A stretch of 64,000 nt of DNA from Roseibium aquae. GTDB taxonomy: Bacteria; Pseudomonadota; Alphaproteobacteria; Rhizobiales; Stappiaceae. The position numbers and the translations under genes were made by a program. The stretch is taken from assembly GCF_008711285.1 (NCBI RefSeq), contig NZ_VXDC01000004.1:1-64000 (forward strand). The letters are read 5' to 3'. The notes under the pieces were generated by a model. The model was not told where the DNA came from, made no database searches, and saw nothing but the letters and a program-made list of their open reading frames with translations. This document shows positions 826-24,422 of the stretch, one piece after another; position 1 is the first letter of the stretch, and every line of letters begins with the position of its first letter.

Positions 826-1164
826 TCAGATGATTTGAAGTTGAAGCGACGGGTGGAGGCGCTGCAGGTTCTTCAGGGATTTCGACTGCCAGGGGATCGA
901 CTTCGAGCCCAGAACCTCAATCGCTATACTCGGCTTCTTGCGGACTTCGATGGTGAATTTCGCTAGCAAGTTGATCCCGGAGCTGTTCAGGAACTCAAGC
1001 CCGGTCAGATCCAGGCAGATCGCTTCCGGGTTCGAATTCAAAACGTCGTTCATCAGGGACAGGATCGGAGCATATGCTTCCGTACCGGACAACCGCATGG
1101 TGCCCTCATAATGAATTTTGGCTCCCTCCACCCAGACACGATAGTCGTTGGTGCTGATTTCCAT
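826..1164 (-). CDS. STAS-domain regulator, slr1659-like
   Basis: A 112-residue single STAS domain of the kind that acts as anti-sigma-antagonist or phospho-switch. The hallmark segment [18 protein letters not shown] carries the expected phosphorylatable serine, and the following [20 protein letters not shown] tail is typical of the cyanobacterial slr1659 group. A GTG at 1200 overlapping the upstream stop (GTGA) is possible, but the ATG at 1164 has a good AAGGA ribosome site and starts at the domain. The gene directly follows the slr1658-like ATPase, the usual partner. Expected cycle: the ATPase phosphorylates the serine, the SpoIIE phosphatase of the same operon removes the phosphate. The downstream target is not visible in the sequence. 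Confidence 0.75.
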
Positions 1165-1196
1165 AATTGTTCCGTTCCTTGAGAAACTTGCGAAAC

Positions 1197-1742
1197 TCAC
1201 GAAAGCGCAAAAGCCGCGACCGTGGTCAGTTGAACCCTTCCATTTGCATGTTCGGCATCAAAACGCCAGCCTAGACGTGCGTCGTAGTCGTTCATGAGCG
1301 TTAAAAGTCCAAGGCCCGATCCACCGGATTCCGGGTCCAGGGCATTTGCTTCGATCCGCTCCAGCAGAAGCTCGCCCGGATCCCGCCCGAGAATGCCATC
1401 CAGATAGGTCCTGAACTTTTGTGCCGCTTCTGCACCGATCACATTTTGGATTCGCGCCTCGAACCGATGGTCTTCCAAAGAGCAGGTGACTTCGATGTCA
1501 CCGGTCTCCCTGAACTTCACGGCGTTTTCCAGAATCTCGTTCAAGATATAGCCGATGCTATGGCGGGCATCGACCATGTCGATTGAGGGGCCGGCGGCCC
1601 GGGCAAAATATTCGCCCAAGAAATCGGAAGTGGTTCCGCAATGATGCCAGCCGATGTCCAGCTTGTCCGCCACAAGAAGAACGCGGTATTGGCGGGCGTG
1701 TTCGCTGTTTTCAAGTTGGGTAAGCCCCAGAGTGTCCGCCAT
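1197..1742 (-). CDS. slr1658-like GHKL ATPase-type switch kinase
   Basis: A 181-residue cytoplasmic protein with a histidine-kinase-like ATPase fold: an N-box ([10 protein letters not shown], about residues 67-77) and a glycine-rich G2-type box ([19 protein letters not shown], about residues 139-157). The N- and C-terminal layout matches the slr1658/SiaB-like (DUF6272-type) regulators rather than classical RsbW. It is only 3 bp from the SpoIIE phosphatase gene and overlaps the STAS gene if its GTG start is used. I infer that it binds and phosphorylates the adjacent slr1659-like STAS protein. A shorter, degenerate relative is encoded at 5317-5832 at the head of the same operon, implying duplication. 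Confidence 0.7.
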
Positions 1743-1745
1743 GGT

Positions 1746-4142
1746 TTACCTGTGCTTTAGAACAACAAGAGTAATATCATCATAAAGTTTATGCGATCCG
1801 ATGTGATCCTTCACATCCCGGATGATCGCAGCTGCAATTTCCTTGGCGCTCTTGTGGCTGTTGGCCCTTGCGCAGTCCGACATTCGATCAAACCCGAAGA
1901 ATTCCCCGTCGGCATTTTCAGCTTCTGTGATCCCATCCGTGTGCAACAGCAGCACATCATCCTGGTTGAAGTCCAGCGTCATGGTTCCCAGGAAGGGTGA
2001 AATATCGGCCTCCAGGCCGACGGGGAAACCTAGATCCACTGTATCGATCCGCTCGACGTCGCCATTGGCGCGGATGAGAAGCACCTCTTCATGCTGGCCC
2101 GACACGGTGACCTTGTTGTCCTCGTAGTCGACAAAGGCGAGCGTCATGTGTTTGTCGGAATCGGTGCGTTCGATGTTCTTGAACATGCTGCGATTGACGA
2201 CATCGAGGAACGCAGCAGGGTCGTCGCCGCCCTTTTCCTGCAGCGCACGGGCCACCGATTGGACCATCAGCATCAGCACACCGCTCTCCAGACCGTGCCC
2301 GGTGACATCGCCGATGCCGATCTTGATCCGGCTGCCATTCTGCAGGACGTCGTAATAGTCACCGCCGACCTCATCGGCCGGTTCCATGAAGGTGGCGATC
2401 TCAACATCTGGAATGTTGTCGAGTTCGGTTGCCTTGGGCAGCACCATCTCCTGAATGCGTTTGGCCACATCGAGTTCCGCCCCAAGCCGCAGGTTTTCCG
2501 TCTGGAGGCGTTTGTTCAGTTCGACGATTTCCCGATTGGCGGTCTCGAGTTTGGCGGTGCGCTCCTCGACCAAGTTTTCCAGATTGTTAGTGTAAAGGCT
2601 CATCTCCTCGGCCATCCGGTTGAAGGCCGTTCCAACCGCCCCGACTTCATCCTTGCTCGGGATCTGGACGCGCACCGAATAGTCCTTGTTCTGGAGCGCG
2701 CGCGCGGCGCCCGCCAGGGCGCTGAGACCCGCAGTGATCCGTCCGGAGATGGCGTAGACAGCGACGAAAACGATTACGAGGCTGATCAAAAGGGCCGCGA
2801 TCTGCCACTGCACGATGTTGCGTGTCGCATCGGAAATCTTTTCCTGCACCTCGCCGAGCGTCTCGTACATTTCCTGTTCGGAAACCAGAAAGCCGAGGGT
2901 CAGGCTCTCCGCGACAATTGTGGAGCCGTTCCACAGGTTGACCGGATCGAGGCGTTTCAAGACCACGATGTAGTTCTGCGGCCCGCCTCCGGCATCGATT
3001 TCGATCGTGTCGATTATGGTGTTCGCATCGGTCGGCAGAAGGAGATTGGAAATGGCGGGATACCGGCTCTGGTTCAAGAAGCGGTTGATGCCGGTAACGC
3101 CCTGGCCGGCGGCATCGACCGAGATCAGGCCGAGCGTTTGGGCGCCGGCATCGCTGACGGCGATGACGTTGCCGGCGGAACTGGTCAAGAAACCGAACCC
3201 AGTATCGGCGATCTGAACGTTCTCCACGAGCTGGCCGAACTGATCAAGGGTCACATCTACGGCCGCCATGCCGGCCACGTCGGTCCGATCCTCGGTCCAA
3301 AGCGGCTGGAAGAAGCTGACGATGAGTGCGCCGGTGATCGCGTCGATATAGGGTTCGGTCGCAACAATGTCCCGGGCCACGGGGCGCGAGGCGGGTTCGC
3401 CGATCCACGCCTGCCAACCCTCATAAACACCGGGAAAGAAGAAATCCCAGAAATTGGCTTCGTTGTGGCCGGGGTAGAGACGGTCAAAGGTCTGCGCCTG
3501 GGTCGTGTAGGGGGTCGTGCGCATGATCGGCGTGTCTTTGGGGCCGACATAATACATTTGGAGCTTGTTGGAGCCGGAGGACATGAGGGCCGGAGCGATC
3601 AGGTTGAACGCGGCGCTGTCGATCACCTCCTCCTCGGCACCTGGAAGCAGGTTCCCCTGATCATCCAGAAGGTACCCCCAGATACTGACCACGGACGGGC
3701 CGGACAGGTTCTGAGCCCAGCCGCCCTGCGGATCGAATGTGATGTTCTGGTCGCCAAGATCCGGATCGCTTTCCACGGCTTCGCCGATGCGGATTTCGGT
3801 TTCAGGGTGATCGATCAGGGACTGGAGCGAGCTGCCCAGCACCTCGACTTCCGAATAGGTCTGATCCAGAAGAAGGTTCGTTCTGAGCGCCGTCGTATCG
3901 ATATAGGTGTTGAGATATTCCTGCGTTGCCTCGGTCAAACCCTGGCTGACGGTCTCTGTCGCATCACGTGACAGGCGCTGAACGTTCCAGATCGCCACGC
4001 CGCCGGCCAGCATGATGTCGAACAGCACCGCCGCTCCGACGACGAGCATGAACTTCGCCCGGAAGCTGTGGCGCGACAGCGGGGTGATTTCTTCCGGCTG
4101 CCGGGTCTCAGAGGACGAAGCGGTTTGCAGCATCTGGCTCAT
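1746..4142 (-). CDS. membrane dCache-HAMP-SpoIIE Ser/Thr phosphatase
   Basis: A 798-residue signal-transducing PP2C phosphatase. A transmembrane helix (about residues 32-54) precedes a large periplasmic double-Cache sensor region (about 60-430), then a second membrane helix (about 438-460), a HAMP segment, a coiled coil (LENLVEERTAKLETANREI) and a SpoIIE-type PP2C catalytic domain (about 565-798). Metal-binding aspartates are visible in GGDYYDV, DVTGHGLESG, HTDGITEAEN and YDDITLVVL. The ATG at 4142 is chosen because it overlaps the upstream TGA (ATGA). It probably dephosphorylates the STAS partner(s) of the operon in response to a periplasmic ligand, like SiaA or RsbU-type proteins. The ligand is unknown. 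Confidence 0.88.
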   Translation of the reverse strand: MSQMLQTASSSETRQPEEITPLSRHSFRAKFMLVVGAAVLFDIMLAGGVAIWNVQRLSRDATETVSQGLTEATQEYLNTYIDTTALRTNLLLDQTYSEVEVLGSSLQSLIDHPETEIRIGEAVESDPDLGDQNITFDPQGGWAQNLSGPSVVSIWGYLLDDQGNLLPGAEEEVIDSAAFNLIAPALMSSGSNKLQMYYVGPKDTPIMRTTPYTTQAQTFDRLYPGHNEANFWDFFFPGVYEGWQAWIGEPASRPVARDIVATEPYIDAITGALIVSFFQPLWTEDRTDVAGMAAVDVTLDQFGQLVENVQIADTGFGFLTSSAGNVIAVSDAGAQTLGLISVDAAGQGVTGINRFLNQSRYPAISNLLLPTDANTIIDTIEIDAGGGPQNYIVVLKRLDPVNLWNGSTIVAESLTLGFLVSEQEMYETLGEVQEKISDATRNIVQWQIAALLISLVIVFVAVYAISGRITAGLSALAGAARALQNKDYSVRVQIPSKDEVGAVGTAFNRMAEEMSLYTNNLENLVEERTAKLETANREIVELNKRLQTENLRLGAELDVAKRIQEMVLPKATELDNIPDVEIATFMEPADEVGGDYYDVLQNGSRIKIGIGDVTGHGLESGVLMLMVQSVARALQEKGGDDPAAFLDVVNRSMFKNIERTDSDKHMTLAFVDYEDNKVTVSGQHEEVLLIRANGDVERIDTVDLGFPVGLEADISPFLGTMTLDFNQDDVLLLHTDGITEAENADGEFFGFDRMSDCARANSHKSAKEIAAAIIRDVKDHIGSHKLYDDITLVVLKHR

Positions 4143-5320
4143 AGTGGTTTGCGTCCCGAGGCCGCCCAAATGGGCCAGCCCGCATATCCTTTCGGATGCA
4201 GGGCGGCGAAGATGTGATCCTGAAAGCCCTTCCGGAATTCGGCTATCTGCTCAGGACTGTCACCGCGCTCGACGGCCATTTGCCCGGCATAGACATCCTC
4301 CCAGGATTGGATGATGTCGGCGAAGTCCTGCGGATTGCCATCAAGGTTCGTGACCATGAAGCTTTCCATGAGAATGTCGTCGAACCCGGCGTCGAGCAGG
4401 TAGCGGCGGCTTTTGGGACCGAGTTCGATGTCCATGTTGAAATGAGCCCAAAGCTTTGCAAGCTCGGTATAGGTTTTCTGGATGCTGTCCGCGCGCGGTT
4501 CGCCCAGGCAATGGGAGTTCTTTTCGTTGGTGATATAGACCCGGCCACCCGGTTTGCAGATCCTGAAGAGTTCGCGAAGGATCAGTTCCGGACGATCGAA
4601 CACCTGCAACGCGTGCCGGCAGGTGACAAAGTCGAATTGATCGTCCTCGAGCAGCATGTCCGACGCGTCGCCGTAGACATAGTCGATCCCCTTGATCCCG
4701 AATTCCGCCGCGACCTCGCGTGCATAGGCAAGGCTGCTTTTGGAATGGTCGAGCGCGACGATCCGGTCCGGCTCGTATTCCTTCTGCATCAGCACGGCGA
4801 AATCACCGATGCCGCAGCAAATATCGGCAACCAGCATGTTGGGCTTCAGGCCGTGCCGGGCCAGCATGGTCTTTTCATGGTGCCAGGTCAGGTTGGTTTG
4901 GGTGCGCAGGATCGGGATGAACCCACCTTCCTCCAGGAAATTCTGACCGGGATAGAAATCGCTGTCGTACTCGCTGACGACAATGGCTGGTGCCTGGTCC
5001 TGCAGCGAGGAAAATTTCTGCGTGGCCCAGCCGACGACGCTGGATGTGGTCACGTGAATGTTCAGGTCGGGACGTTTTGCGACCGTGTCCAGCAGAGTTT
5101 GCGCAAGGGCCTTGAAGGCCACGTTGTTCATCCGCACCAGCCGCCGGACGTTGAGGTAAAGCCGCCCGCGGGCGCGCTGAGCGGCCCCTTTCAACTCATC
5201 GAGGCAGGTCGAAAGCTCCTCGGCACGTTGCGGGCGCAAGGCGCCTTGCACGGCAAATTCCTGGTTGTTTTCATTGAACTGCCAGGAAAAGCCCCGATTT
5301 TGAATCGCCGTGTTGGTCAA
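4139..5320 (-). CDS. STAS-like domain fused to SAM methyltransferase
   Basis: A 393-residue two-domain protein. Residues about 10-125 align by eye with the slr1659-like STAS protein: RRLVRMNNVAFKALAQTLL sits where the partner has [13 protein letters not shown], and VGWATQKFSSLQ matches [12 protein letters not shown]. The phosphorylatable serine is replaced by asparagine (MNNVAF). Residues about 145-330 form a class I methyltransferase with the SAM loop VADICCGIGDFAV, a following acidic LDHSKSS and the QFDFVTCRHALQVF and KPGGRVYI motifs of UbiE-like enzymes. It overlaps both neighbours by four bases. I infer a methyltransferase tethered to the partner-switch complex; the methyl acceptor is unknown. 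The fusion is unusual. Confidence 0.75.
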   Translation of the reverse strand: MTNTAIQNRGFSWQFNENNQEFAVQGALRPQRAEELSTCLDELKGAAQRARGRLYLNVRRLVRMNNVAFKALAQTLLDTVAKRPDLNIHVTTSSVVGWATQKFSSLQDQAPAIVVSEYDSDFYPGQNFLEEGGFIPILRTQTNLTWHHEKTMLARHGLKPNMLVADICCGIGDFAVLMQKEYEPDRIVALDHSKSSLAYAREVAAEFGIKGIDYVYGDASDMLLEDDQFDFVTCRHALQVFDRPELILRELFRICKPGGRVYITNEKNSHCLGEPRADSIQKTYTELAKLWAHFNMDIELGPKSRRYLLDAGFDDILMESFMVTNLDGNPQDFADIIQSWEDVYAGQMAVERGDSPEQIAEFRKGFQDHIFAALHPKGYAGWPIWAASGRKPL

Positions 5321-5832
5321 GACGTCTCGTCCTCGATTTCAAGATCCGCGAGGATGCGGATCCGCTGATTGGTGGGATCTGTTTGGAGGGACAGGCGGGC
5401 ATCGTAATTCAGGGTCAGTTCCAGAATGCCGAGACTTGGATCGAGCCCTTCGGTTTCGAACAGGCACCGGAAATAGGCGTCCCGTGCGTTTGCGGTCTGC
5501 GCCTCGGCGACCGCCGTTTCATAAAACCGGGTAACGGTGTCGCTGCTCGGCATGTCGACCTCAATACGGTCGTGGGACCCTTCGCGGAAAAACCGGCAGA
5601 CCAGCGGCCCGTTGTCACCGTGAACCCGGAAAATGGTTTCCAGTAATTCGTTCAGCGCGGACGAATACAGATTGGCGAAAAGCAGGGAGTCCCGGCGGTT
5701 GCTGCTGACCATCTTCGACACATAGGTGGACATCAGGTCGCAGTTGTCCCAAACCCTTGAAAAATCTTCGATATCGACGTCGAGTTCGAGCATGCAGTTG
5801 GAAACGGGGGAGGTGGTCTGGCTGGCGATCAT
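5317..5832 (-). CDS. degenerate slr1658-like regulator
   Basis: A 171-residue protein that starts the leftward operon. By eye it parallels the functional slr1658-like ATPase at 1197-1742: RRDSLLFANLYSSALNELLE matches [14 protein letters not shown], the central 'F-x-T-x3-Axx...' stretch has the same length, and LELTLNYDARLSL matches [13 protein letters not shown]. The N-box asparagine context is altered (ALNELLETIF) and the glycine-rich GSGLG loop is lost (PSLGIL), so ATP binding is doubtful. It may be a pseudokinase scaffold for the STAS-methyltransferase encoded next, which it overlaps by four bases. An ATG at 5832 is the only long start; the region before it is AT-richer and likely holds the operon promoter. 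Confidence 0.6.
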   Translation of the reverse strand: MIASQTTSPVSNCMLELDVDIEDFSRVWDNCDLMSTYVSKMVSSNRRDSLLFANLYSSALNELLETIFRVHGDNGPLVCRFFREGSHDRIEVDMPSSDTVTRFYETAVAEAQTANARDAYFRCLFETEGLDPSLGILELTLNYDARLSLQTDPTNQRIRILADLEIEDETS

Positions 5833-6322: not shown

Positions 6323-7210
6323 GTGAACACTGAAACGATGACCAGTGAATTGGAAACACTGCGTTCGGTACTTGAAAACCTCCGCGCCGAACACGCCGAT
6401 CTTCAGCTCCTCTACGAAGCCACGATAGAACATGGCGAAGCGGTGGAAGACCAACTGGCCGAAAGCAATATCCGGCTTCAGCTAATGCAGGACCGGCTCA
6501 CCGCCGAACTGAACGATGCCGGGCGCTATGTCCAATCGATTTTGCCCGACCGGCGGATCAAGGATCCGCAGACGGATTGGCTGCTGGTGCCGTCAACGGA
6601 ACTCGGTGGCGATTCGTTCGGTTATCATGACTTGGACCAGGACCATTTTGCAGTCTATCTGATCGACGTTTGCGGGCATGGTGTTGGCGCCGCGCTGCTG
6701 TCGGTCTCGATCATCAACGTGCTGCGGGCGAGCGCGCTTCCCCAAACGGATTTCAAGGACCCGTCAGAGGTCTTGTTCAAATTGAACAATGCCTTTCCGA
6801 TGGAACGTCAGGACAACATGTTCTTCACCATCTGGTACGGGGTTTACCAGCGGTCGGCGCGCCTGCTCCGGTTTGCCTCGGGTGGGCATCCGCCCGCCAT
6901 TCACCTGAAGGCGGATGGCGGATTTCAGATGCTCGGAACACCGGAAGGCATGGTGATCGGGGCCATCGCCGATATGACATTTGAACAGGGCGAGGCCGAG
7001 ATCCGGCCACAGGACCGTTTGCTTGTCCTGAGCGATGGAACATTCGAAATCGATGTGCCGGGGCAGGGGGTGCTGTCGGTCGAGGATCTGGCCAGATACG
7101 CATGTGCGGTGCCGGACGGTGTCACCCCGGCGTTGTTCGAGTGGATCGGCTCGCTTGCACACCAAGCGGCCCTCCCGGACGACTACACCATGGTGGAACT
7201 CCGGTTTTAG
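6323..7210 (+). CDS. soluble SpoIIE-type Ser phosphatase, RsbU-like
   Basis: A 295-residue cytoplasmic protein. An N-terminal coiled coil (about residues 5-70, rich in E/L heptads) is followed by a SpoIIE PP2C domain (about 75-295) with GGDSFGYHDL, LIDVCGHGVGAALLS, LVLSDGTFEID and LPDDYTMVELRF as metal-site motifs. No receiver or membrane segment is present, so input may come through the coiled coil. The GTG at 6323 has AGGA seven bases upstream; the ATG at 6338 is an alternative. It converges with the RsbW-like and RsbV-like genes at 7265-8134 and is their natural phosphatase, giving a second complete partner-switch set. A comparable trio in Rhodobacter capsulatus is RbaV/RbaW/RbaY. Confidence 0.82.
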   Translation: MNTETMTSELETLRSVLENLRAEHADLQLLYEATIEHGEAVEDQLAESNIRLQLMQDRLTAELNDAGRYVQSILPDRRIKDPQTDWLLVPSTELGGDSFGYHDLDQDHFAVYLIDVCGHGVGAALLSVSIINVLRASALPQTDFKDPSEVLFKLNNAFPMERQDNMFFTIWYGVYQRSARLLRFASGGHPPAIHLKADGGFQMLGTPEGMVIGAIADMTFEQGEAEIRPQDRLLVLSDGTFEIDVPGQGVLSVEDLARYACAVPDGVTPALFEWIGSLAHQAALPDDYTMVELRF

Positions 7211-7264
7211 GATCCAAAGGCGGGAAACAGAAGGTGGCTGCGCATGCATGTGTGCCGGTCCGCC

Positions 7265-7714
7265 TTAGGGTGCTTCCGCGCCCGTGTCCCGGCTGGGCAC
7301 CGGCAATCGCACATGGGTCACATTCGTGCCGGTTTGGCGGGTGTTGGTGACCGAATCCGCCAATTGATGAACGAGAAAAAGCCCGAGTCCGCCGATTTCC
7401 CGTTGTTCGGCGGATGCCGTTCCGAACTCCACTTCCCGCGCGATTCCCGCATCAAATGCGATGCCGTGGTCCGTCAGGGTGACGTCGGCATGGCGGGTGT
7501 CCAGCAGGATCTCCAGCCGGATCTGATCCGCCGTGCCGTGCGGATAGCCGTAGCTCACGGTGTTGGTGAACAACTCCTCCACCACCAGGGAAATGGTCCG
7601 GCGCAGATCGTCGCTGGCGCCGGAGCGTTTCGCGAACTGGTCGATGAAGGCGTAAAGGGCCAGAAGGCTGTCGAGCTTGTTTTCGACTGTGATCTGGTCG
7701 CTGCTGATCTGCAT
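7265..7714 (-). CDS. RsbW/SpoIIAB-like anti-sigma kinase
   Basis: A 149-residue GHKL ATPase of the serine-protein-kinase/anti-sigma type. The N-box VVEELFTNTVSYGYP (about residues 44-58), the D-x-G loop LTDHGIAFD (about 80-88) and the G2 box IGGLGLFLVHQLAD (about 106-119) are intact, so ATP binding is expected. It lies 42 bp downstream of the STAS gene on the same strand, the usual V-then-W order. Expected action: bind a target (sigma factor or other effector) when free, and phosphorylate the adjacent STAS protein. No sigma factor gene is present in the window, so the target is either elsewhere or not a sigma factor. Confidence 0.85.
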   Translation of the reverse strand: MQISSDQITVENKLDSLLALYAFIDQFAKRSGASDDLRRTISLVVEELFTNTVSYGYPHGTADQIRLEILLDTRHADVTLTDHGIAFDAGIAREVEFGTASAEQREIGGLGLFLVHQLADSVTNTRQTGTNVTHVRLPVPSRDTGAEAP

Positions 7715-7756
7715 CCCGCCGGATCCGTTCTGCGGCCTACCTGCCGGTTGGAAAAC

Positions 7757-8134
7757 TCATGTCGCGTTTGCCTTAGAGGCGCCGGAATGGACGAGCGCTT
7801 CCGCTTCGCTATCGGCAACGGTGACGATCTTGAGAAACCCGGATATCCGCAAAACCTCAAGCACGGAGGCATTGACGCCGAAGAAGACCAGCTTGTGGCC
7901 TGAGGGCGCCAGTTTCTTTGCGACGATGAGGATGGAGCGCAGGCCGAAGCTGGTGACGTAGTCGACGCCGCCCATGTCCACCAGCAAATGGGCGGGTCCG
8001 TCCGCCAAAGCGCCGTTCAAATGGGCTTCGAAGTCCTTCGCGGACAAGGTTTCCAGTTTTCCAACCGGACAGATGATGCGAATCCCATCTTCGAACCTGT
8101 CGGTGATCGTCAGCAGTGTTGTCTCGGTGGTCAT
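7757..8134 (-). CDS. RsbV/SpoIIAA-like STAS anti-anti-sigma protein
   Basis: A 125-residue STAS protein. The conserved phospho-site region reads VDMGGVDYVTSFGLRSILI, with the serine in T-S-F-G-L-R at the usual place. The ATG at 8134 is favoured because GGATGA lies at suitable spacing; an ATG at 8146 and a GTG at 8164 are in frame. It is the first gene of a leftward pair with the RsbW-like kinase and diverges from tssA across 220 bp. Its position beside tssA makes a link between this switch and the T6SS conceivable, but nothing in the sequence proves it. Confidence 0.82.
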   Translation of the reverse strand: MTTETTLLTITDRFEDGIRIICPVGKLETLSAKDFEAHLNGALADGPAHLLVDMGGVDYVTSFGLRSILIVAKKLAPSGHKLVFFGVNASVLEVLRISGFLKIVTVADSEAEALVHSGASKANAT

Positions 8135-8352: not shown

Positions 8353-10068
8353 ATGGCGGACGAAGCGGCGGTTCCTGATCTGGACGATCCGCGCTGTGGT
8401 ATCGGCGAGGCGCCGCTCCCCGACGGAGCCGCGCCGGATGACTTCCGTGACACGGCGCTGTTCGAACAGCTTGAAGGCGAATTCCGCAAGATGGAAGTCG
8501 ACGGTCCATCGGCCGTCAACTGGAAAATGCTGAATGAGAAAACGCTCGACGTTCTGTCAAATCAGTCGAAGGATCTCGTGCTCGCAACTCGCCTCGCCTA
8601 TGGCCTTTACATGGAGGAAGGGTACGGCGGGCTTGCAGTTGGCGCGCGCATCCTCAAGGGCATGTCGGCGTCTCATTGGGAGACCATGATCCCCCCGCTG
8701 CGACGCGAACGCGGACGGGCTGGGGCTTTTGACTGGTTTGCCGAGAAGCTCGCGGTTGTGGTCGAGGCTCATCCGCCGGAAGCCGCTGATCTGACCAAGG
8801 CGCTATGGGCTCACGATGAAATCGCCGGCCTTGACGCGACGCTTGAGCAGAAATTCACGACAGCGTCTGCCGCACTCGGCCCTTTGATCCGGGCCCTCCG
8901 GCCTTTCGCGAAGGAGGCTCGATCGGCGCTTGAGGAAGCGGCCCGCAAAAAGGCAGAGGCCGAAGCAGCCGCGGCGGCCCGGGAAAAGGTGGAAGAGGCA
9001 GCTTCCCAGGCGGCCGAGTCCCAGACCGATGGTCCCCAGACCGCGTCGTCGGACAGCCAGCCGGAACCGGCAGCGTCCGGGGCCGCGGCACCGCCGCCGT
9101 CTCCCGCGCCCCCTGCTCCGGCGTCGGCCGCGCTGATGGCGGCACCGGCGATTGCCGCTGACGGACCGTCCTCAGAAGCGCTTCAATCTCTGTTCAACGC
9201 CGCCTCCAAGATCGCCACGGGCTTGCGGCAGGAGAACCCCGCCGATCCGGGCGCCTATCAATGCAGCCGGTTTGCCCTGTGGGGCCGCATTCGCCAGACG
9301 CCGCCGAACCAGGCAGGAAAGACAGCGCTGCCGCCGCCGCAAAAGACGAGAGTCCAAGAACTGGCCGCCTTGAAGGGCGCGGCAAATCATCAAGGCCTGG
9401 TCCAAAGCGCTGAGGCCGCCTTCGTCTCCGCGCCGTTCTGGCTGGACGCGCAGCGCCAGCTTCACGAGGCCATGACCGCCCTTGGACAGGATTATGAGTC
9501 GGCGCGCCTGGTGGTCGAAGGGGAATTGGCCGCGTTCTTGAAGCGGTGTCCGGGGCTGTTGGATTTGAGCTTCAGCGATGGAACGCCGTTCGCGGACGCA
9601 GCCACCCGCGCGTGGATCGCCGAGACAGTATCGGCCGGCGGCGGCGCGGCGACCCAGGCCCCGGACGGTCTGGAAGGCGCCGTGTCCGAAGCGGCGGCCC
9701 TCATGCAGGCGGGCAAGCTCTTGGAAGGGCTTGGTCTGATGAAGGCGCATGCATCGGCCTGTGCCCAGGAACGGGACTGGTACCGCGCCCAGGTGCGGCA
9801 GGCGGAACTGTGCCTTCGTTTTGAAATCATGGGGCCGTTGTTCGCCCTTTGCGCGCGTTTGCTGGCCATGGCCGAGGAGCGGCAGTTGATGCGCTGGGAG
9901 CCGGATCTGGTGGTTGGGCTATGCAGGGTCTATTGGCAGGCGCTGCAGCACAAGAATGCGCGCCAGTATGTTGCCGACGCAGAGGCCGTAGCTCTGAAGC
10001 ATAAGGTTATGGAAACCATTTCGACATTGGATCTGAGTGCAGCAGCAGAATTGACAGGGAAGAAATAG
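8353..10068 (+). CDS. tssA: T6SS baseplate/sheath-initiation protein TssA
   Basis: A 571-residue TssA. The N-terminal ImpA-type domain (about residues 10-150, including CGIGEAPLPDG and the NWKMLNEKTLDVLSNQSKDL stretch) is followed by an Ala/Glu/Pro-rich linker (about 190-275) and a C-terminal VasJ-like helical domain (about 275-571). TssA primes baseplate assembly and coordinates sheath and tube polymerisation. It opens the rightward T6SS operon, but a 166-bp gap separates it from tssB. The ribosome site before the ATG at 8353 is weak (CAAGG very close), so the start is the least certain part. The linker is low in complexity and probably flexible. Confidence 0.85.
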   Translation: MADEAAVPDLDDPRCGIGEAPLPDGAAPDDFRDTALFEQLEGEFRKMEVDGPSAVNWKMLNEKTLDVLSNQSKDLVLATRLAYGLYMEEGYGGLAVGARILKGMSASHWETMIPPLRRERGRAGAFDWFAEKLAVVVEAHPPEAADLTKALWAHDEIAGLDATLEQKFTTASAALGPLIRALRPFAKEARSALEEAARKKAEAEAAAAAREKVEEAASQAAESQTDGPQTASSDSQPEPAASGAAAPPPSPAPPAPASAALMAAPAIAADGPSSEALQSLFNAASKIATGLRQENPADPGAYQCSRFALWGRIRQTPPNQAGKTALPPPQKTRVQELAALKGAANHQGLVQSAEAAFVSAPFWLDAQRQLHEAMTALGQDYESARLVVEGELAAFLKRCPGLLDLSFSDGTPFADAATRAWIAETVSAGGGAATQAPDGLEGAVSEAAALMQAGKLLEGLGLMKAHASACAQERDWYRAQVRQAELCLRFEIMGPLFALCARLLAMAEERQLMRWEPDLVVGLCRVYWQALQHKNARQYVADAEAVALKHKVMETISTLDLSAAAELTGKK

Positions 10069-10129
10069 CGGTAATTCCGTTCTGTTTGCGAACTGGTTGG
10101 AGAAAGTAAATTTCTGCCGGTTAAAACAA

Positions 10130-10160
10130 TTGACACGAAGCGCACTTAACAAGGCACTAT
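10130..10160 (+). promoter_or_regulatory. possible tssBC promoter
   Basis: In the 166-bp gap between tssA and tssB a perfect -35-like TTGACA occurs at 10130-10135. The best -10 candidate is weak (CACTAT at 10155-10160, spacing 19). The distance to the tssB start codon is about 75 bases. It would give the abundant sheath proteins their own transcription. Low confidence because the -10 is poor. Confidence 0.3.
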
Positions 10161-10234
10161 CGTCTGCACGAAGTGACCGGATGTAACGTTTACGGAATGT
10201 CGGACAGCCTCTGGGCGAGATGTGAGGAGAGCCT

Positions 10235-10756
10235 ATGTCGAAAGAATCTTCGGTTGCCCCCAAGGAGCGGGTCAATATCAAGTACAAGCCCGCGACGGGA
10301 GACGCCAAGGAGGAGGTCGAACTGCCGTTGAAGATGGTGGTTCTGGGCGATTACACACTGCGCCCGGACGATACCCCGGTCGAGGATCGCGAGCTGATCA
10401 ACGTCAACAAGGACAATTTCAATGAGGTGATGAAGAGTCAGAACCTCGCCTTGGATATGTCCACCGACAACAAGCTGGTCGATCAGGTAGAGGGCGAAGA
10501 GCCCGAGAAGATGACCGTATCGATGAAGTTCGAGAGCCTTGCCGATTTCTCACCGGAAGCCGTGGTCAAGCAGACACCGGAGCTGAACAAGCTTCTGGAA
10601 CTGCGCGAGGCTCTGGTGGCCCTCAAAGGCCCGCTGGGCAATGTGCCCGCGTTCCGAAAGGCGATCCAGAATGTGCTTGGCGACGAACAGGCCCGAGACA
10701 AGCTCTTGGCCGAGTTGACCAACGCCACCGGCAAGCCATCCGGGGATGCCAGCTGA
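10235..10756 (+). CDS. tssB: T6SS sheath small subunit TssB
   Basis: A 173-residue TssB (VipA/ImpB). It interlocks with TssC to form the contractile sheath. Family features are the MVVLGDYTLRPDDTPVEDR strand near residues 34-52, the ING/INV-type 'LINVNKDNFNEVM' segment, and the FESLADFSPEAVVKQTPEL motif followed by a C-terminal helix (KLLELREALVALKGPLGN) that contacts ClpV or TssC. The length is normal. A strong GAGGAGA ribosome site precedes the ATG. tssC follows after 98 bp with its own ribosome site. Confidence 0.95.
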   Translation: MSKESSVAPKERVNIKYKPATGDAKEEVELPLKMVVLGDYTLRPDDTPVEDRELINVNKDNFNEVMKSQNLALDMSTDNKLVDQVEGEEPEKMTVSMKFESLADFSPEAVVKQTPELNKLLELREALVALKGPLGNVPAFRKAIQNVLGDEQARDKLLAELTNATGKPSGDAS

Positions 10757-10854
10757 CCGATGCCAACTGACCGGCAGGCGGCGCCGCGCCCCGCGCGCTG
10801 CCATTCTGCCGGAACAGCCGCCATTTGCCGCAACCCTTCGACGGGAGCAATGAA

Positions 10855-12339
10855 ATGTCCAACACCGATACGCAGCAACAGGCTGGGGTCCAGACCGAAG
10901 AACTGGATGCGTCCCTGCTCGACCAAATCCTTCAGGAAACCAAGCTCGCTCCGACCGACGACGGCTACGACGTTGCCCGCAAGGGGGTCGCCGCGTTCAT
11001 CTCCGAACTGTTGAAGCCAACGTCCGGCGAAACACAGGTCAACAGCGCGGCGATCGACATGATGATCACCGAGATCGACAACAAGCTGAGCCAGCAAGTC
11101 GATCAGATTCTCCACCACGAGGATTTCAAGAAACTGGAATCCGCCTGGCGCAGTCTCAAGTTCCTGGTCGACCGCACGGACTTCCGCCAGAACATCAAGC
11201 TGGAGATGATGAATGTCTCCAAGGATGAACTCCTTGAGGATTTCGAGGACAGTCCCGAAGTCGTCAAATCCGGCCTTTACAAGCACATTTACACTGCCGA
11301 GTACGGTCAGTTCGGTGGTCAGCCCGTGGGCGCCGTGGTGATGAACTATGACTTCGGCCCGAGTTCGCCCGACATCAAGCTTGCCCAGTATTGTGCCAGT
11401 GTCGGTGCCATGTCCCATGCTCCGTTCATCGCCGCGGCGTCCCCGGCCATGTTCGGTGTCGATTCTTTCGAGGAAATCCCGAACCTGAAAGACATGGAAT
11501 CGATCTTCGAGGGACCGAAATACGCCAAATGGAATTCGTTCCGCGAATCCGAGGACTCCCGCTACTTCGCCCTCGCCATGCCGCGCTTCATGCTGCGCAC
11601 GCCCTACGGGCCGGAGACCACTCCGGTCAAAGCCTTCAATTACGAGGAGGAATCGGGCAACAGCAGCGACAACTACCTTTGGGGCAACGCGTCGTTCGCG
11701 CTGGCCTCGAAACTCAGTGACAGTTTCGCGAAATACCGTTGGTGCCCGAACATTATCGGCCCACAATCGGGGGGCGCGGTCGAGGACCTGCCGGTCCACA
11801 CCTTCGAGGCGATGGGGCAGCTTCAATCCAAGATCCCAACCGAAGTTCTGGTATCCGACCGGAAGGAATTCGAGCTGGCCGAACAGGGCTTCATCTCGCT
11901 GACCATGCGCAAGGGCAGCGACAACGCGGCCTTCTTTTCGGCGAACTCCGTCCAAAAGCCGAAATTCTTCGGGAACACGGCCGAAGGCAAGGAGGCAGAG
12001 CTCAATTACAAGCTCGGCACGCAGCTCCCCTATATGATGATCATCAACCGTCTGGCCCACTACATCAAAGTGCTGCAGCGGGAAAATATCGGCAGCTGGA
12101 AGGACCGCGGCGAACTGCAGACCGAGCTCAACAACTGGATCCGCCAATATGTGTCGGATCAGGAGAACCCGTCGGCGGATGTCCGCTCGCGCCGGCCGTT
12201 GCGCAAGGCTTCGATCACGGTCTCGGATGTGGAAGGCGAACCCGGCTGGTACAGTGTCAGCATGGCCGTTCAGCCGCACTTCAAGTATATGGGCGCGGAC
12301 TTCACGCTGTCCTTGAAGGGCAAGCTGGACAAGGCCTGA
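10855..12339 (+). CDS. tssC: T6SS sheath large subunit TssC
   Basis: A 494-residue TssC (VipB/ImpC). Typical blocks are visible: VDQILHHEDFKKLESAWRSL (about residues 80-100), FLVDRTDF, the DFGPSSPDIKLAQYCASVGA stretch, the SEDSRYFALAMPRFMLRTPYG block and the C-terminal ENPSADVRSRRPLRKA core-domain motif. The ATG at 10855 is chosen for its GGAG at eight bases; an in-frame ATG ten codons earlier lacks a site. It forms the sheath with TssB, is depolymerised by ClpV and is immediately followed by a terminator-like hairpin, in keeping with higher expression than the baseplate genes. Confidence 0.96.
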   Translation: MSNTDTQQQAGVQTEELDASLLDQILQETKLAPTDDGYDVARKGVAAFISELLKPTSGETQVNSAAIDMMITEIDNKLSQQVDQILHHEDFKKLESAWRSLKFLVDRTDFRQNIKLEMMNVSKDELLEDFEDSPEVVKSGLYKHIYTAEYGQFGGQPVGAVVMNYDFGPSSPDIKLAQYCASVGAMSHAPFIAAASPAMFGVDSFEEIPNLKDMESIFEGPKYAKWNSFRESEDSRYFALAMPRFMLRTPYGPETTPVKAFNYEEESGNSSDNYLWGNASFALASKLSDSFAKYRWCPNIIGPQSGGAVEDLPVHTFEAMGQLQSKIPTEVLVSDRKEFELAEQGFISLTMRKGSDNAAFFSANSVQKPKFFGNTAEGKEAELNYKLGTQLPYMMIINRLAHYIKVLQRENIGSWKDRGELQTELNNWIRQYVSDQENPSADVRSRRPLRKASITVSDVEGEPGWYSVSMAVQPHFKYMGADFTLSLKGKLDKA

Positions 12340-12368
12340 GCCTGATCAGGCCGTAACTCAAATGCACT

Positions 12369-12397
12369 GGGGCGCCACACATGGTGCCCCTTGTTTT
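12369..12397 (+). terminator. terminator-like hairpin between tssC and tssE
   Basis: A 9-bp stem (GGGGCGCCA with TGGTGCCCC, one G-T pair) around a CACA loop is followed directly by TTGTTTT. It sits 30 bp after the tssC stop and only a few bases before the AGGAGG ribosome site of tssE. It probably terminates part of the transcripts, lowering baseplate gene expression relative to tssBC. Confidence 0.7.
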
Positions 12398-12413
12398 GCA
12401 AGGAGGACCAGTC

Positions 12414-12827
12414 GTGCCGGTGAGCCTTTTCCAACGCCTAGAAGAGGACATCACGCTGGGCGACTTCAGGTCCCCCGACGAGGCGCAAAACGCCCTGATG
12501 GACAGCGTCCTTCAGGATTTGCGCGTCTTGTTGAATTCGATGGCCGGCTGTTGTGAGATCCGGCCCGACTATGGGCTTGCGGATTTCAACTCCGTTTTCC
12601 AAAGTCATCGAGACACGGCGCAGGAGCTGTGCCGTGACATAGAACGTCAGATCCGTGTGTTCGAGCCACGCCTGAAAAACCCAAGGGTTCGCGCCGTGGA
12701 CGATCCGGACCGGCCTCTTGAGTTCGTGTTCAGTGTCGAGGCCCAACTCGAATATGCGGGGCGTTCCGTTCGGGTCCGGATCGATTCGGTATTGGACAGC
12801 AGCGGGCAGATGCGCGTCACCGCCTAA
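12414..12827 (+). CDS. tssE: T6SS baseplate protein TssE (gp25-like)
   Basis: A 137-residue gp25-like wedge protein of the T6SS baseplate. The conserved N-terminal SLFQRLEED, the central CEIRPDYGLADFN motif and a C-terminal beta-rich part (FVFSVEAQLEY) are present. The GTG at 12414 is chosen because AGGAGG lies seven bases upstream; an ATG at 12381 would fall inside the terminator hairpin and is rejected. It is followed after 21 bp by tssF, its baseplate partner. Confidence 0.92.
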   Translation: MPVSLFQRLEEDITLGDFRSPDEAQNALMDSVLQDLRVLLNSMAGCCEIRPDYGLADFNSVFQSHRDTAQELCRDIERQIRVFEPRLKNPRVRAVDDPDRPLEFVFSVEAQLEYAGRSVRVRIDSVLDSSGQMRVTA

Positions 12828-12848
12828 TGGGAAGGAGCCCTCTCGGGC

Positions 12849-14591
12849 ATGTCGGTCAATTCCTACTATCGGGATGAACTGAGTTACCTCAAGGAGATGG
12901 GGGCCGTATTCGCACGGGCCAACCCGCGCCTGTCGAAGTTTCTCGCCGACGATCCGATGGATCCGGATGTCGAGCGGTTGATGGAGGGCTTTGCGTTTCT
13001 GGTCGGGCGTCTGCGCCAGCGGCTGGATGCGGAAATGCCGGAAGTTGTGCAGAGCTTGCTCAAATTGATCTGGCCGCATTATCTCAGGCCCATCGCGCCG
13101 ATCACGACGGTGAAGTTCAAGCATGCGACCGGCGTCAGCGAATTGGCGATCAAGGTGCCGAAGGGCACGCAGGTCCAGACCGCGGTCGTCGATGGACAGG
13201 CCGTGCCGTTCCGCACGACCATGGACCTGGTGGTCCTGCCCTTCGAGGTGAAGGACCTCAAATTCGAGAACCGGAAGGAAAGCGCGCAGCTCGATATCGG
13301 GTTTTCCAAGTCGGCGGGGGCCGGACTTCAGGCGTTGGAGGCGGGGCCGCTTGTGCTCTATCTCGGCGGCCAGGCGGATGGCACGACCTCCCGGCAGCTT
13401 TTCCTGGCCCTGATGGAGCGCTTGCGCTCGGTTCAGATCGTTCCGAATGGGCAGGAGCCGATCGAAGCCGATGTCACGATAGAGCCGGTTGGCTTTCAAG
13501 CCGCCGAGGCGACGCTTCCCTATCCGCCGGGCGCCTTCGAGGGGTTCCGGATCATGCAGGAGTATTTCGCCTGCCCGGAAAAGTTCATGTATGTGCGGGT
13601 GGCCGGGCTGCAGAAATACGCCTCCATCCAGTCCGACGGTTTCCGGCTGGTGTTCAATTTCAAGCAGGCTCTGGCGGATGTGACCCGGATCATGCCCTAC
13701 CAGATCCAGACCAACACAACCCCGGCAATCAATCTGTTTGAGGCCGAGGGGCAGGCCTTGATGGTCGAGCACGACCGAACCGAGTATCCTGTCCGTCCGG
13801 TCGGCGGTCCCCACATGCGCAGCGTTCATGAGGTGATTGCGGCGACCGGGTGGGTCCAGGGGTCGAACAAGCGCGTCACCTATGACCGGTTCGAGTCCTT
13901 CAGCCACGACGCCGCTGGCCATGACAAGCTGTACTTTCGCACCAGCATCCGTCCGTCGGTGCTCGGCAGCGGGGTGGAACACTATATCTCGTTCCTGACG
14001 CGTATGAACCAGACCGGAGTTCCACCCACCGAGACCATTTCCCTCTCTCTTTTGTGTTCAAATGGCCCGCATGTGTCGAACTTCGGTGTCGGCGCGGTCA
14101 ATCAGCCGACTTCCAGCACGCCGGCCAAACTTGTCTTTTCGAACATCACGCGCATTCAGGGCGAGGTGCCGCCGCCGCTGGACGACCGCGTTCTTTGGAC
14201 CTTGATCGCAAATCTGTCGCGCAACTACGCCTCGCTCATCGATGTCGATGCCTTGCGCACCGTGATCGGCGCCTATGACTTCCGGGCGTTGGTTGACAAG
14301 CAATCCGCGCTTCAGCGCGATCAGCTCTTGCAGAGTTTTCAGAGCTTTCAGCGCAAGGGGGTCGACATATTCCGCAATGGACGCCCCGTGCGTGCCTATG
14401 AACTCGTTCTGCGCTTGGCGGAAAGCGCCATGGGTGGAGAGGCGGAAATGTATCTTTTCGGTTCGGTTCTGGACCGATTCTTGAAATCCTATGCGAGCAT
14501 CAACAGCCTTCACCGCCTGACCCTTGTCGGGACGGATGCGAACGCGACCCTGAAATGGGCCCCGAAAGAGGGGAGCGCTGCGCATCTATGA
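12849..14591 (+). CDS. tssF: T6SS baseplate protein TssF
   Basis: A 580-residue TssF (ImpG/VasA). The N-terminus YYRDELSYLKEMGAVFARANP and the DPDVERLMEGFAFLVGRLRQRLD block are diagnostic, as are WPHYLRPIAP and the VPKGTQV strand. TssF with TssG forms the wedge arms around TssE and TssK. Length is normal. The gene overlaps tssG by four bases (ATGA), so translation is coupled. Confidence 0.95.
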   Translation: MSVNSYYRDELSYLKEMGAVFARANPRLSKFLADDPMDPDVERLMEGFAFLVGRLRQRLDAEMPEVVQSLLKLIWPHYLRPIAPITTVKFKHATGVSELAIKVPKGTQVQTAVVDGQAVPFRTTMDLVVLPFEVKDLKFENRKESAQLDIGFSKSAGAGLQALEAGPLVLYLGGQADGTTSRQLFLALMERLRSVQIVPNGQEPIEADVTIEPVGFQAAEATLPYPPGAFEGFRIMQEYFACPEKFMYVRVAGLQKYASIQSDGFRLVFNFKQALADVTRIMPYQIQTNTTPAINLFEAEGQALMVEHDRTEYPVRPVGGPHMRSVHEVIAATGWVQGSNKRVTYDRFESFSHDAAGHDKLYFRTSIRPSVLGSGVEHYISFLTRMNQTGVPPTETISLSLLCSNGPHVSNFGVGAVNQPTSSTPAKLVFSNITRIQGEVPPPLDDRVLWTLIANLSRNYASLIDVDALRTVIGAYDFRALVDKQSALQRDQLLQSFQSFQRKGVDIFRNGRPVRAYELVLRLAESAMGGEAEMYLFGSVLDRFLKSYASINSLHRLTLVGTDANATLKWAPKEGSAAHL

Positions 14592-15691
14592 CGGTTCAGG
14601 GTCAACCCGAAACACTTGAGGACGTGGACCGGGCCGCCTCGATGGCCCTGTCGCATCATCTGGCGCAAAGTCAGTTTTTCCAGATGGTCCATCTGATCGG
14701 GTTGATCCATGCGGATTTGAGCCAGATGGGCCCCGGACACGACCCTGCGGGGGAGCCTGTCCGGTTCCGCGCGACCCGCTCCTTGAGCTTCGGGCGCAGC
14801 GATGTGTCCCAGGTTGTGTATGACGCGGGTGCGAACCGGTTTGAGATCCGCGTTAATTTCATGGGGCTGTATGGTCCGGCGTCGCCGATGCCGCCCTATC
14901 TGACCGAGCGGATCATCGAGAGGGACGAGGCGCCATCCTCGCTCGAAGACCTGCTGGACATTTTCAACCATCGGCTCATCACGCTGCTCTACCGCATATG
15001 GGAGCGCTCCCGCCACCACATCCGCTACCGGGCAGACGGCCTCGACCCGACCTCGAAGTGTTTCCTGGCGCTGTGCGGGTTTCCCATCGAGGACCGGGCG
15101 CGCATCGGATCGGTGTCGCGTTCCGCGCTGTTGCCTTATGCGGGGTTGATGTCGCTCTATTCGAATTCGGCCGCCGCGGTTTCGTCCATGTTGTCCGGGT
15201 TTTTCGGGATTCTGTGCGAAATACTCGAATATGCGCCGCGAAAGGTTCTCCTGGATGCGGACTCGCGTATAGCCTTGGGTGTGTCGAACACACGGCTTGG
15301 GCGCGACATGATTTTGGGAGAGAGCGTGGAGGACGACCTTGGGAAGTTCACTGTGCGTCTCGGCCCCGACCGGTTCGAGACGGTAGCCCCATTCTTCCCG
15401 GGTGGACGCAGACACCATGAGATCGGCGAATTGCTCGCAATGGTCGTGAGCGATCCGCTCGACTGGGATGTGGAATACAAGATCGAGCGCGATACGATTT
15501 CTCCGGCCGTTCTTGGCGGTGCAAGGCTTGGGGTCTCTTGCTGGATGGGGTCGGAGCAGGGCGACTATCTCGAGACGCCGATCCGCCTTGCCCCCTTTCA
15601 CTCAGCCGGCGCCGATGCCGGATTGGAGCAGGGGGCTCCGCCCGAGAGGGAACGGACCGGACGCACGAACCAATTGGAGGCCTTCACGTGA
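14588..15691 (+). CDS. tssG: T6SS baseplate protein TssG
   Basis: A 367-residue TssG (ImpH/VasB). Family features are the N-terminal FFQMVHLI region, VRFRATRSLSFGRSDV, VNFMGLYGPASPMPPYLTE (the conserved GL-G-x-SP-LP box) and the FNHRLITLLYRIWERSRH block. The ATG at 14588 is used because it overlaps the tssF stop; the frame extends upstream only 11 more codons. It complexes with TssF in the baseplate wedge. Its stop codon overlaps the GTG of the FHA protein gene. Confidence 0.93.
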   Translation: MTVQGQPETLEDVDRAASMALSHHLAQSQFFQMVHLIGLIHADLSQMGPGHDPAGEPVRFRATRSLSFGRSDVSQVVYDAGANRFEIRVNFMGLYGPASPMPPYLTERIIERDEAPSSLEDLLDIFNHRLITLLYRIWERSRHHIRYRADGLDPTSKCFLALCGFPIEDRARIGSVSRSALLPYAGLMSLYSNSAAAVSSMLSGFFGILCEILEYAPRKVLLDADSRIALGVSNTRLGRDMILGESVEDDLGKFTVRLGPDRFETVAPFFPGGRRHHEIGELLAMVVSDPLDWDVEYKIERDTISPAVLGGARLGVSCWMGSEQGDYLETPIRLAPFHSAGADAGLEQGAPPERERTGRTNQLEAFT

Positions 15692-17886: not shown

Positions 17887-18374
17887 AACTGACACGCCGC
17901 TACATGTGTCATGGTTTGCTCATGCTGCCGGCAGCCGGTCTGATCGGATGCTCGCGTGTGCCGCCTCCGACACCGGTGGAGGTGCAGCTTCAGGCCGACG
18001 AGAATGTGAACCCGAACGAGAATGGTGATCCGGCGCCGGTTGTGGTGCGGGTCTATGAACTCAAGGGCATGAGCGCGTTCAACAACGGCGAGTTTTTCGA
18101 TTTTGCCGATGACGATACCAAGCTGCTCGGCGGCGATCTCATCGGCAAGCAGGAATACGAGCTGACACCGGGTCAGACCAAGGAATACGACCGCAGCGTT
18201 TCAAGCGAGGCGACCCATATCGGCGTGGTCGCCGCTTTCCGTGACATACAATCCGCGCAATGGCGGGATTCCATTGAACTCGATGCGGAGAAGAAAAATG
18301 AGTTTGTCATATACGTGACAAGTCTTGCGGTTCGTATCCAGAAGTTGCGTCGCCGCCGCCTGGGTGTCTTCTAG
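17883..18374 (+). CDS. tssJ: T6SS outer-membrane lipoprotein TssJ
   Basis: A 163-residue lipoprotein. A signal peptide with basic start (MKLTRRYMC) ends in the lipobox LIGC at about residue 23. The mature part is a transthyretin-like fold with the family's ADENVNPNENGDPAPVVVRV strand and the VYELKGMSAFNNGEFFDF segment. TssJ anchors TssM to the outer membrane. The ATG at 17883 overlaps the fha stop (ATGA). A 128-bp gap follows before tssK. Confidence 0.92.
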   Translation: MKLTRRYMCHGLLMLPAAGLIGCSRVPPPTPVEVQLQADENVNPNENGDPAPVVVRVYELKGMSAFNNGEFFDFADDDTKLLGGDLIGKQEYELTPGQTKEYDRSVSSEATHIGVVAAFRDIQSAQWRDSIELDAEKKNEFVIYVTSLAVRIQKLRRRRLGVF

Positions 18375-18407
18375 ATGAGTAGTCCGTGTGTATCTGCTGA
18401 ATCGAAA

Positions 18408-18435
18408 TTGCGAACATTTCCGTTTTTCAGATACT
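18408..18435 (+). promoter_or_regulatory. weak candidate promoter upstream of tssK
   Basis: The tssJ-tssK gap (18375-18502) is AT-richer than the genes around it. TTGCGA at 18408-18413 and GATACT at 18430-18435 are separated by 16 bp and each match four of six consensus bases. It could be an internal promoter for tssKLM. Evidence is limited to this match. Confidence 0.2.
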
Positions 18436-18502
18436 TAACCTTGAGGCACATTACGCTTATGACGAATCGACGTTTCAAAGGTCACGGGGCGGGGGTTACC
18501 CA

Positions 18503-19837: not shown

Positions 19838-19847
19838 CGAAAGGCTC

Positions 19848-20759: not shown

Positions 20760-20767
20760 GACGCGCC

Positions 20768-24349: not shown

Positions 24350-24422
24350 AGGCCCAGCCCGCGATTGGCGGCTTTGCTGCCTTTGGGGCCAAACAAACGT
24401 CGTTGCAAGAAGGGGCCGGGCC

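Follow-up and report, generated by a model that had tools for sequence, protein, structure and literature searches.

Why would a bacterium carry two related pairs of regulatory genes around a single phosphatase gene, and what could one of these pairs do after losing both its ATP loop and its phospho-serine? This question is raised by a five-gene block near one end of a 64,000-nucleotide stretch of Roseibium aquae DNA (assembly GCF_008711285.1, contig NZ_VXDC01000004.1, positions 1 to 64,000), which is hereafter called the window. The original prediction, made from the letters of this DNA, was that a pair of slr1658-like and slr1659-like genes had been duplicated, and that the second pair had become a catalytically inert scaffold. 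Our analyses confirm the kinship of the two pairs, and lead us to propose, tentatively and with close to an even chance of being correct, that the block is a partner-switching operon of five genes in which the second pair is the output arm and gates a methyltransferase.

All five genes reside on the minus strand. In the list of open reading frames (ORFs) they are arranged in the order of transcription from gene A (5832-5317) to gene E (1164-826), as follows.

A, 5317..5832, minus strand: slr1658-like putative pseudokinase that has no N-box Asn and no Gly loop.
B, 4139..5320, minus strand: slr1659-like N-terminus lacking the phospho-serine, fused to a class I S-adenosylmethionine (SAM) methyltransferase.
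Pseudo-STAS (slr1659-like) part of B, 4976..5284, minus strand: approximately residues 13-115, from the hhalign alignment to E (B residues 18-115).
Methyltransferase part of B, 4139..4846, minus strand: from approximately residue 159, the best Pfam and PDB-sequence matches starting at residues 158-166.
C, 1746..4142, minus strand: putative membrane sensor phosphatase (dCache-like, HAMP and SpoIIE/PP2C), from Pfam and motifs.
D, 1197..1742, minus strand: intact slr1658-type GHKL kinase-like protein, from NCBIfam and motifs.
E, 826..1164, minus strand: slr1659-type STAS switch protein with a predicted phospho-acceptor Ser-Ser (S61, S62), from NCBIfam and a motif.

The TTG start codon of B overlaps the stop codon of A, and the ATG of C overlaps the stop codon of B. 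E begins with ATG, and an alternative GTG at 1200 would lengthen it. From their spacing, genes A to E probably form one transcript.

Loci carrying relatives of the block were drawn from related genomes, plasmids, named genomes and a search of the alphaproteobacterial class. The resulting 112 loci, some of which represent the same genome twice, were reduced to 82 non-redundant loci at 98.5% identity, measured on the C-terminal 350 residues of B. Residue counts given below refer to this reduced set, in which D and E were counted in 77 loci because the other five end too early. The scan of named genomes returned 276 stretches with a relative of B, of which the best 80 were examined.

An intact pair and its divergent relatives

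The first pair is intact, as originally predicted. D scores 161.4 bits with the NCBIfam model slr1658_superfam (NF047703) and E scores 148.3 bits with slr1659_superfam (NF047705), and both are therefore members of these families by the curated cut-off of 100. The residues that we take to be the N-box and Gly loop of GHKL kinases are both present in D, with the N-box Asn found in 77 of 77 representatives and SGLG in 75, the window among them. Likewise, every one of the 77 E proteins carries the Ser-Ser. A weak match (E value 0.29) aligns S61 of E to S58 of PDB chain 1th8_B, an anti-sigma F factor antagonist, and S58 is the phosphorylation site of SpoIIAA (PMC11418112). Comparison of D with PDB sequences yielded only chance-level matches, the best to a flavoprotein (0.047) and the next to a histidine kinase (0.088).

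Between the two pairs, C carries SpoIIE (131.3 bits, 5.3e-38) and HAMP (43.6 bits, 3.7e-11) domains in Pfam, together with the motifs GGDYYDV, GDVTGHG, LLHTDGITEA and YDDITLVV. The predicted dCache-HAMP-SpoIIE architecture thus stands for its last two elements, whereas the dCache match (34.3 bits, 2.4e-8) falls below the cut-off of 45. A partner-switch gene set, consisting of the kinase-like D, the STAS protein E with its Ser, and the PP2C-type C, is therefore found side by side.

The members of the second pair are recognized by the same family models at lower scores. A scores 52.9 bits (3e-14) with slr1658_superfam and residues 5-113 of B score 34.6 bits (1.8e-8) with slr1659_superfam; both values are under 100, making these proteins relatives but not members by that rule. 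Direct profile alignment with hhalign relates A to D with a probability of 96.3% (E value 1.6e-9) and B to E with 87.6% (3.5e-6). E and the N-terminal part of B (B-N) from one genome are only about 17% identical. A profile of A recovers D in the genome of the window (2.5e-4). The reverse search, with a profile of D, recovers A in 13 of 61 related genomes, and therefore misses it at an E value of 0.001 in the other 10 genomes that hold both.

As controls, sub-threshold matches to the slr1658 model turned up in 2 of 14 named genomes, other Pseudomonadota proteins that are below the cut-off and outside the operon reach 37 bits, and the scores of two proteins of the SiaB family are 38 and 31 bits. 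Weak matches therefore do occur, and A stands above their level. Chance resemblance was rejected, since every one of the 70 A proteins and 71 B proteins examined from relatives matches slr1658_superfam or slr1659_superfam, respectively, at E values of 0.001 or better (best 3e-24 and 2.6e-12). By these comparisons, the D and E families have divergent relatives in A and in the N-terminal part of B, respectively. Profile comparison thus upholds the claim that 5317-5832 and the front of 4139-5320 constitute a related second pair, pointing neither to an unrelated fold for the former nor to the absence of STAS kinship in the latter. A search of PDB sequences with A found nothing.

The residue losses noted in the original prediction, namely those of the GSGLG loop and the phospho-serine, extend across the collection. 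Not one of the 82 A proteins has the N-box Asn, its position being occupied by V in 40, T in 31, A in 5, I in 3, L in 2 and M in 1, and a loop-like sequence is present in a single representative. Judged by N-box Asn and Gly loop together, A does not qualify as a GHKL kinase. In B, the position of the first Ser of E holds Asn in 79 loci, Met in 2 and Ser in 1, and that of the second Ser holds V in 25, T in 23, A in 20, I in 8, L in 5 and M in 1. Other residues of A are retained, with Asn61, Glu62 and Glu65 invariant in 82 of 82.

The ratio of nonsynonymous to synonymous substitution rates (dN/dS) was computed for 15 pairs of loci. For A, which was saturated in one of these, the other 14 gave values of 0.02-0.35, indicative of purifying selection. 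The possibility that the second pair consists of decayed pseudogenes was rejected because dN/dS is far under 1.

The remainder of B was passed over in the original prediction. Residues 166-263 match Methyltransf_11 in Pfam (68.6 bits, cut-off 21.2; 7.4e-19), and the motif ADICCGIGDF, presumably the SAM motif, is kept across the 82 loci except for I/V in 4 and C/S in 1. With the domain over its cut-off and this motif kept, B is assigned to the class I SAM methyltransferases. Its matches among PDB sequences are diverse methyltransferases (best 3mgg), and three methyltransferase families of PHROGs are also matched. No part of B is better conserved than the methyltransferase, which has a mean pairwise identity of 79% compared to 54% for the STAS part and, by its kept motif, is apparently working. 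Assignment to UbiE/MenG was rejected, as B scores 65.4 bits against cut-offs of 158.35 (TIGR01934) and 216 (NF001244).

Public plasmid records annotate A itself as 'ubiquinone biosynthesis methyltransferase UbiE' (L025 8974-9489, L026 11986-12504, L027 11956-12474 and L182 4880-5386). The A protein of the window matches no methyltransferase model in Pfam or NCBIfam, and the label may have leaked from the neighbouring B. This annotation is misleading and is corrected by the present analysis.

Distribution and origin of the second pair

The five-gene block is common to root-nodule and related bacteria, Sinorhizobium meliloti among them. The gene order seen in the window recurs widely: A-B-D-E, with C between the two pairs, is found in 107 of 112 loci (77 of 82 after near-copies are removed), and the other five are cut short. 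C was flagged in all 112, partially where a locus is cut, and in three of the five cut loci D lies about 4 kb further along the same contig. In the set of 61 related genomes, A is present in 23, and D in exactly those 23. Among 385 Alphaproteobacteria, A is present in 4; these 4 also have D, for which there is one additional match, weak and partial. The operon is patchy within the genus of the window, where both A and D are absent from 15 of 36 other genomes searched.

Proteins over the slr1658 cut-off occur in 7 of 398 Pseudomonadota genomes. Six of these, including the genome of the window, belong to the taxonomic order of the window, and in all six D is accompanied by A and B. In the remaining genome (L165), D occurs with E and a SpoIIE gene but without A or B, and the A-B pair therefore looks like an add-on. 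Two D-E pairs without A-B were opened, one being L165, where a binding protein and the SpoIIE phosphatase accompany the pair, and the other L176, from Kovacikia, where a sulfate permease does so.

The original prediction explained the second pair by gene-pair duplication. Homologous pairs around one phosphatase are indeed observed, but trees built from 30 of the 82 loci neither favour nor reject duplication in place. A forms one clade (100/99) and so does B-N (100/100). Constraining A and D to group together against other relatives costs 2.85 log units (p-AU 0.31), with bootstrap values that are unsettled and long branches that meet, and constraining B-N with E costs 1.32 log units (p-AU 0.30) from few alignment columns. 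An older split or import of the second pair fits these trees equally well. No uncut locus, across seven NCBI families, lacks either copy, and the split would therefore precede the spread of the two copies.

Many copies reside on large plasmids, with A present in 119 plasmid records, so that spread by transfer is possible. By genus, A and D are found in 80 and 78 plasmid records from Sinorhizobium and in 23 and 24 from Rhizobium, whereas Kovacikia has D only. Nonetheless, the block is unlikely to be phage or mobile cargo, as its order is kept across the seven families and E matches nothing in a phage collection at an E value of 1e-5. The one weak match of E in PHROGs (3.7e-4) is to a family of unknown function.

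A proposed output arm and its alternatives

In the proposed operon, a signal would reach the periplasmic dCache-like domain of C and pass through HAMP to the SpoIIE phosphatase domain, which would then dephosphorylate E at Ser61 (or Ser62). D, as a GHKL kinase remotely like SiaB, would rephosphorylate E. Whereas these roles of C, D and E are predicted from their families, the binding of A to B and the exchange with E are suggested by paralogy and gene coupling. A, without the ATP residues, would bind the STAS-like front of B and fix the methyltransferase in one state, and unphosphorylated E would compete for A, or otherwise free B. If E does compete for A, the sensor would set methyltransferase activity. 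It is plausible, though short of probable, that the live D-E pair is mirrored by A-B with partners exchanged between them, such that a membrane sensor controls methylation post-translationally and the methyltransferase is the direct output.

Several observations weigh against this proposal. A Gly-loop-like GPGLG, either a remnant or a product of chance, survives in one A protein (L054, not the window). Every A keeps Glu62, which we assume to resemble a catalytic base, and a plain pseudokinase need not keep it. The mean pairwise identity of A is 47%, compared to 55% for D, 67% for E and 79% for the methyltransferase, and this greater variability also fits a loosely constrained accessory. A Ser occupies the phospho site of one of the 82 B proteins (L120) and a Thr lies one position on in 23, so that phosphorylation of some B proteins is possible. 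Finally, the front of B has a dN/dS of 1.44 in one of the 15 pairs (L086/L079, which are close loci), perhaps caused by a local frame error in one locus.

The best placed of the alternatives, though an unlikely one, is that D is the binding partner of the pseudo-STAS front of B, with A stabilising B or serving as one of its subunits. The output would again be the methyltransferase, and D would be its gatekeeper. Having lost the phospho-serine, B would compete permanently with E for D, and loss of the phospho-site is expected of a fixed kinase binder. B-N also keeps an invariant Trp of the E type (W98 of B, W92 of E). However, A adjoins B in 112 of 112 loci and in 65 of 82 the two genes share 4 bases (longest-ORF starts), and A, being a relative of D, could itself bind B.

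Other alternatives look to genes that flank the operon. The upstream flank was examined in the 82 loci over at most about 10 kb, with less available at contig ends (4 kb or less in several, and one base in L099). A same-strand gene for a GGDEF-EAL protein lies upstream in 45 loci, at a median gap of 108 bases. A soluble phosphatase, here called F, is present in the flank of 29 loci. In 14 of these it occurs together with the type VI secretion gene TssA, which is the arrangement of the window, and in 15 without TssA, although in three of the latter another gene intervenes and the distance is about 2.5 kb. In the remaining 8 loci, none of these three genes was found in the flank. The window representative of F is the following.

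F, 6323..7210, plus strand: soluble coiled-coil and SpoIIE phosphatase, divergent to the operon (SpoIIE 1.5e-38; coiled coil recognized by eye).

Within the window, F belongs to a second switch set at 6323-8134, with G (HATPase_c_2) and H (STAS), that lies between the operon and a type VI secretion cluster at 8353-25175 (TssA, sheath large subunit, TssF, TagH, TssK, TssL, TssM and TagF). Five of the 15 loci that have F without TssA (L063, L070, L085, L087 and L090) yielded no G- or H-like gene within the locus, and F may therefore act on E. It is possible that F is a second input to the operon, of which its membership is uncertain.

In S. meliloti ml47, the GGDEF-EAL gene directly precedes the operon on pSymB (L026 10217-11911), and both domains of its product exceed their Pfam cut-offs. 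No link between this protein and a switch was found in the literature searched. Genes for an AraC-type regulator and a UDP-glucuronate decarboxylase, presumably the cuxR and uxs1 genes of a polysaccharide controlled by cyclic di-GMP (c-di-GMP), are located 3-5 kb from the same operon. The operon of Rhizobium sp. CC-CFT758 has bcsA about 2 kb downstream.

The frequent GGDEF-EAL neighbour, with both of its domains recognizable in S. meliloti, lends some substance to a second, doubtful alternative, in which A is a fixed subunit of B while D, E and C control a different target such as this adjacent protein, so that the operon links the two pairs in expression only. There is precedent in SiaC, which activates the diguanylate cyclase SiaD (PMC8457831). 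Yet 37 of the 82 loci, including the window, have no GGDEF-EAL gene in the examined flank, and A to E are kept there wherever the sequence allows.

On the view first taken of this locus, the second pair is a scaffold without activity; it would do no more than tether or titrate the switch, and the methyltransferase would be incidental. This view now appears improbable. The kinase and phospho-site residues are gone, as it foresaw, but its case for inertness is weak because the SAM motif is kept in the most conserved part of B. Overall, 'output arm' suits the features of A-B better than 'inert scaffold'. The least probable of the alternatives, that in the window the operon serves the adjoining type VI secretion cluster jointly with F, G and H, draws on the proximity of the genes from TssA to TagF and on the recurrence of TssA in 14 loci, the window included, but TssA was not found in the examined flank of 68 of the 82, of which 45 have the GGDEF-EAL gene instead.

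Relation to known partner switches

The nearest described system is SiaA-SiaB-SiaC-SiaD of Pseudomonas aeruginosa, which likewise combines a PP2C phosphatase, a kinase and a switch protein with a fold like that of anti-sigma factor antagonists (PMC7647112, PMC8457831). SiaB consumes ATP when SiaC is present (PMC7647112). The best NCBIfam match of C is SiaA, at 143.3 bits against a cut-off of 700, and the slr1658 proteins are distantly related to the SiaB family, with a SiaB family score of 16.5 against a cut-off of 85. No SiaC match was found among ten window proteins scanned, and the locus does not classify as SiaABCD. Also unlike that system, the five genes of the window operon include no cyclase, and the operon adds the pseudo-pair and the methyltransferase.

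Compared with slr1658/slr1659 pairs in general (NF047703, NF047705), of which D and E are members by cut-off, the difference lies in A-B, which the canonical pairs L165 and L176 lack. Disruption of slr1658 in Synechocystis has been tied both to poor recovery from iron limitation and to pgr5 over-expression (PMC7555055). The text consulted does not mention the A-to-E layout.

The shared logic of kinase, STAS protein and phosphatase extends to SpoIIAB-SpoIIAA-SpoIIE and RsbW-RsbV-RsbU of Bacillus (PMC11418112, PMC8256260). In the present operon, by contrast, the putative output is an enzyme, and the annotations of neighbouring genes in seven annotated loci list no sigma factor gene. A further partner switch, for mixed-linkage glucan in S. 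meliloti, is reported to have been described by Baena et al., with other components said to carry Bgr names. That switch is tied to c-di-GMP, and its host also carries the A-to-E operon. The glucan switch is not known to have a methyltransferase. One of its components, BgrV, is named in PMC8457831.

The partner switches described in the texts consulted end in sigma factors, c-di-GMP enzymes or unknown targets (PMC8256260, PMC8457831). Neither the operon nor a methyltransferase as a partner-switch output is described in the literature searched, which had many subscription papers outside it. The S. meliloti locus tags SMb20447-20452, DUF6272 and the NCBIfam names had no match in that literature.

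If our proposal is correct, a module represented by 82 non-redundant loci, including one in the model symbiont S. meliloti, would have a methyltransferase as its end point, reached by way of a pseudo-pair whose members are related to the components of the switch itself. A dead copy would thus have been retained as the output of the switch.

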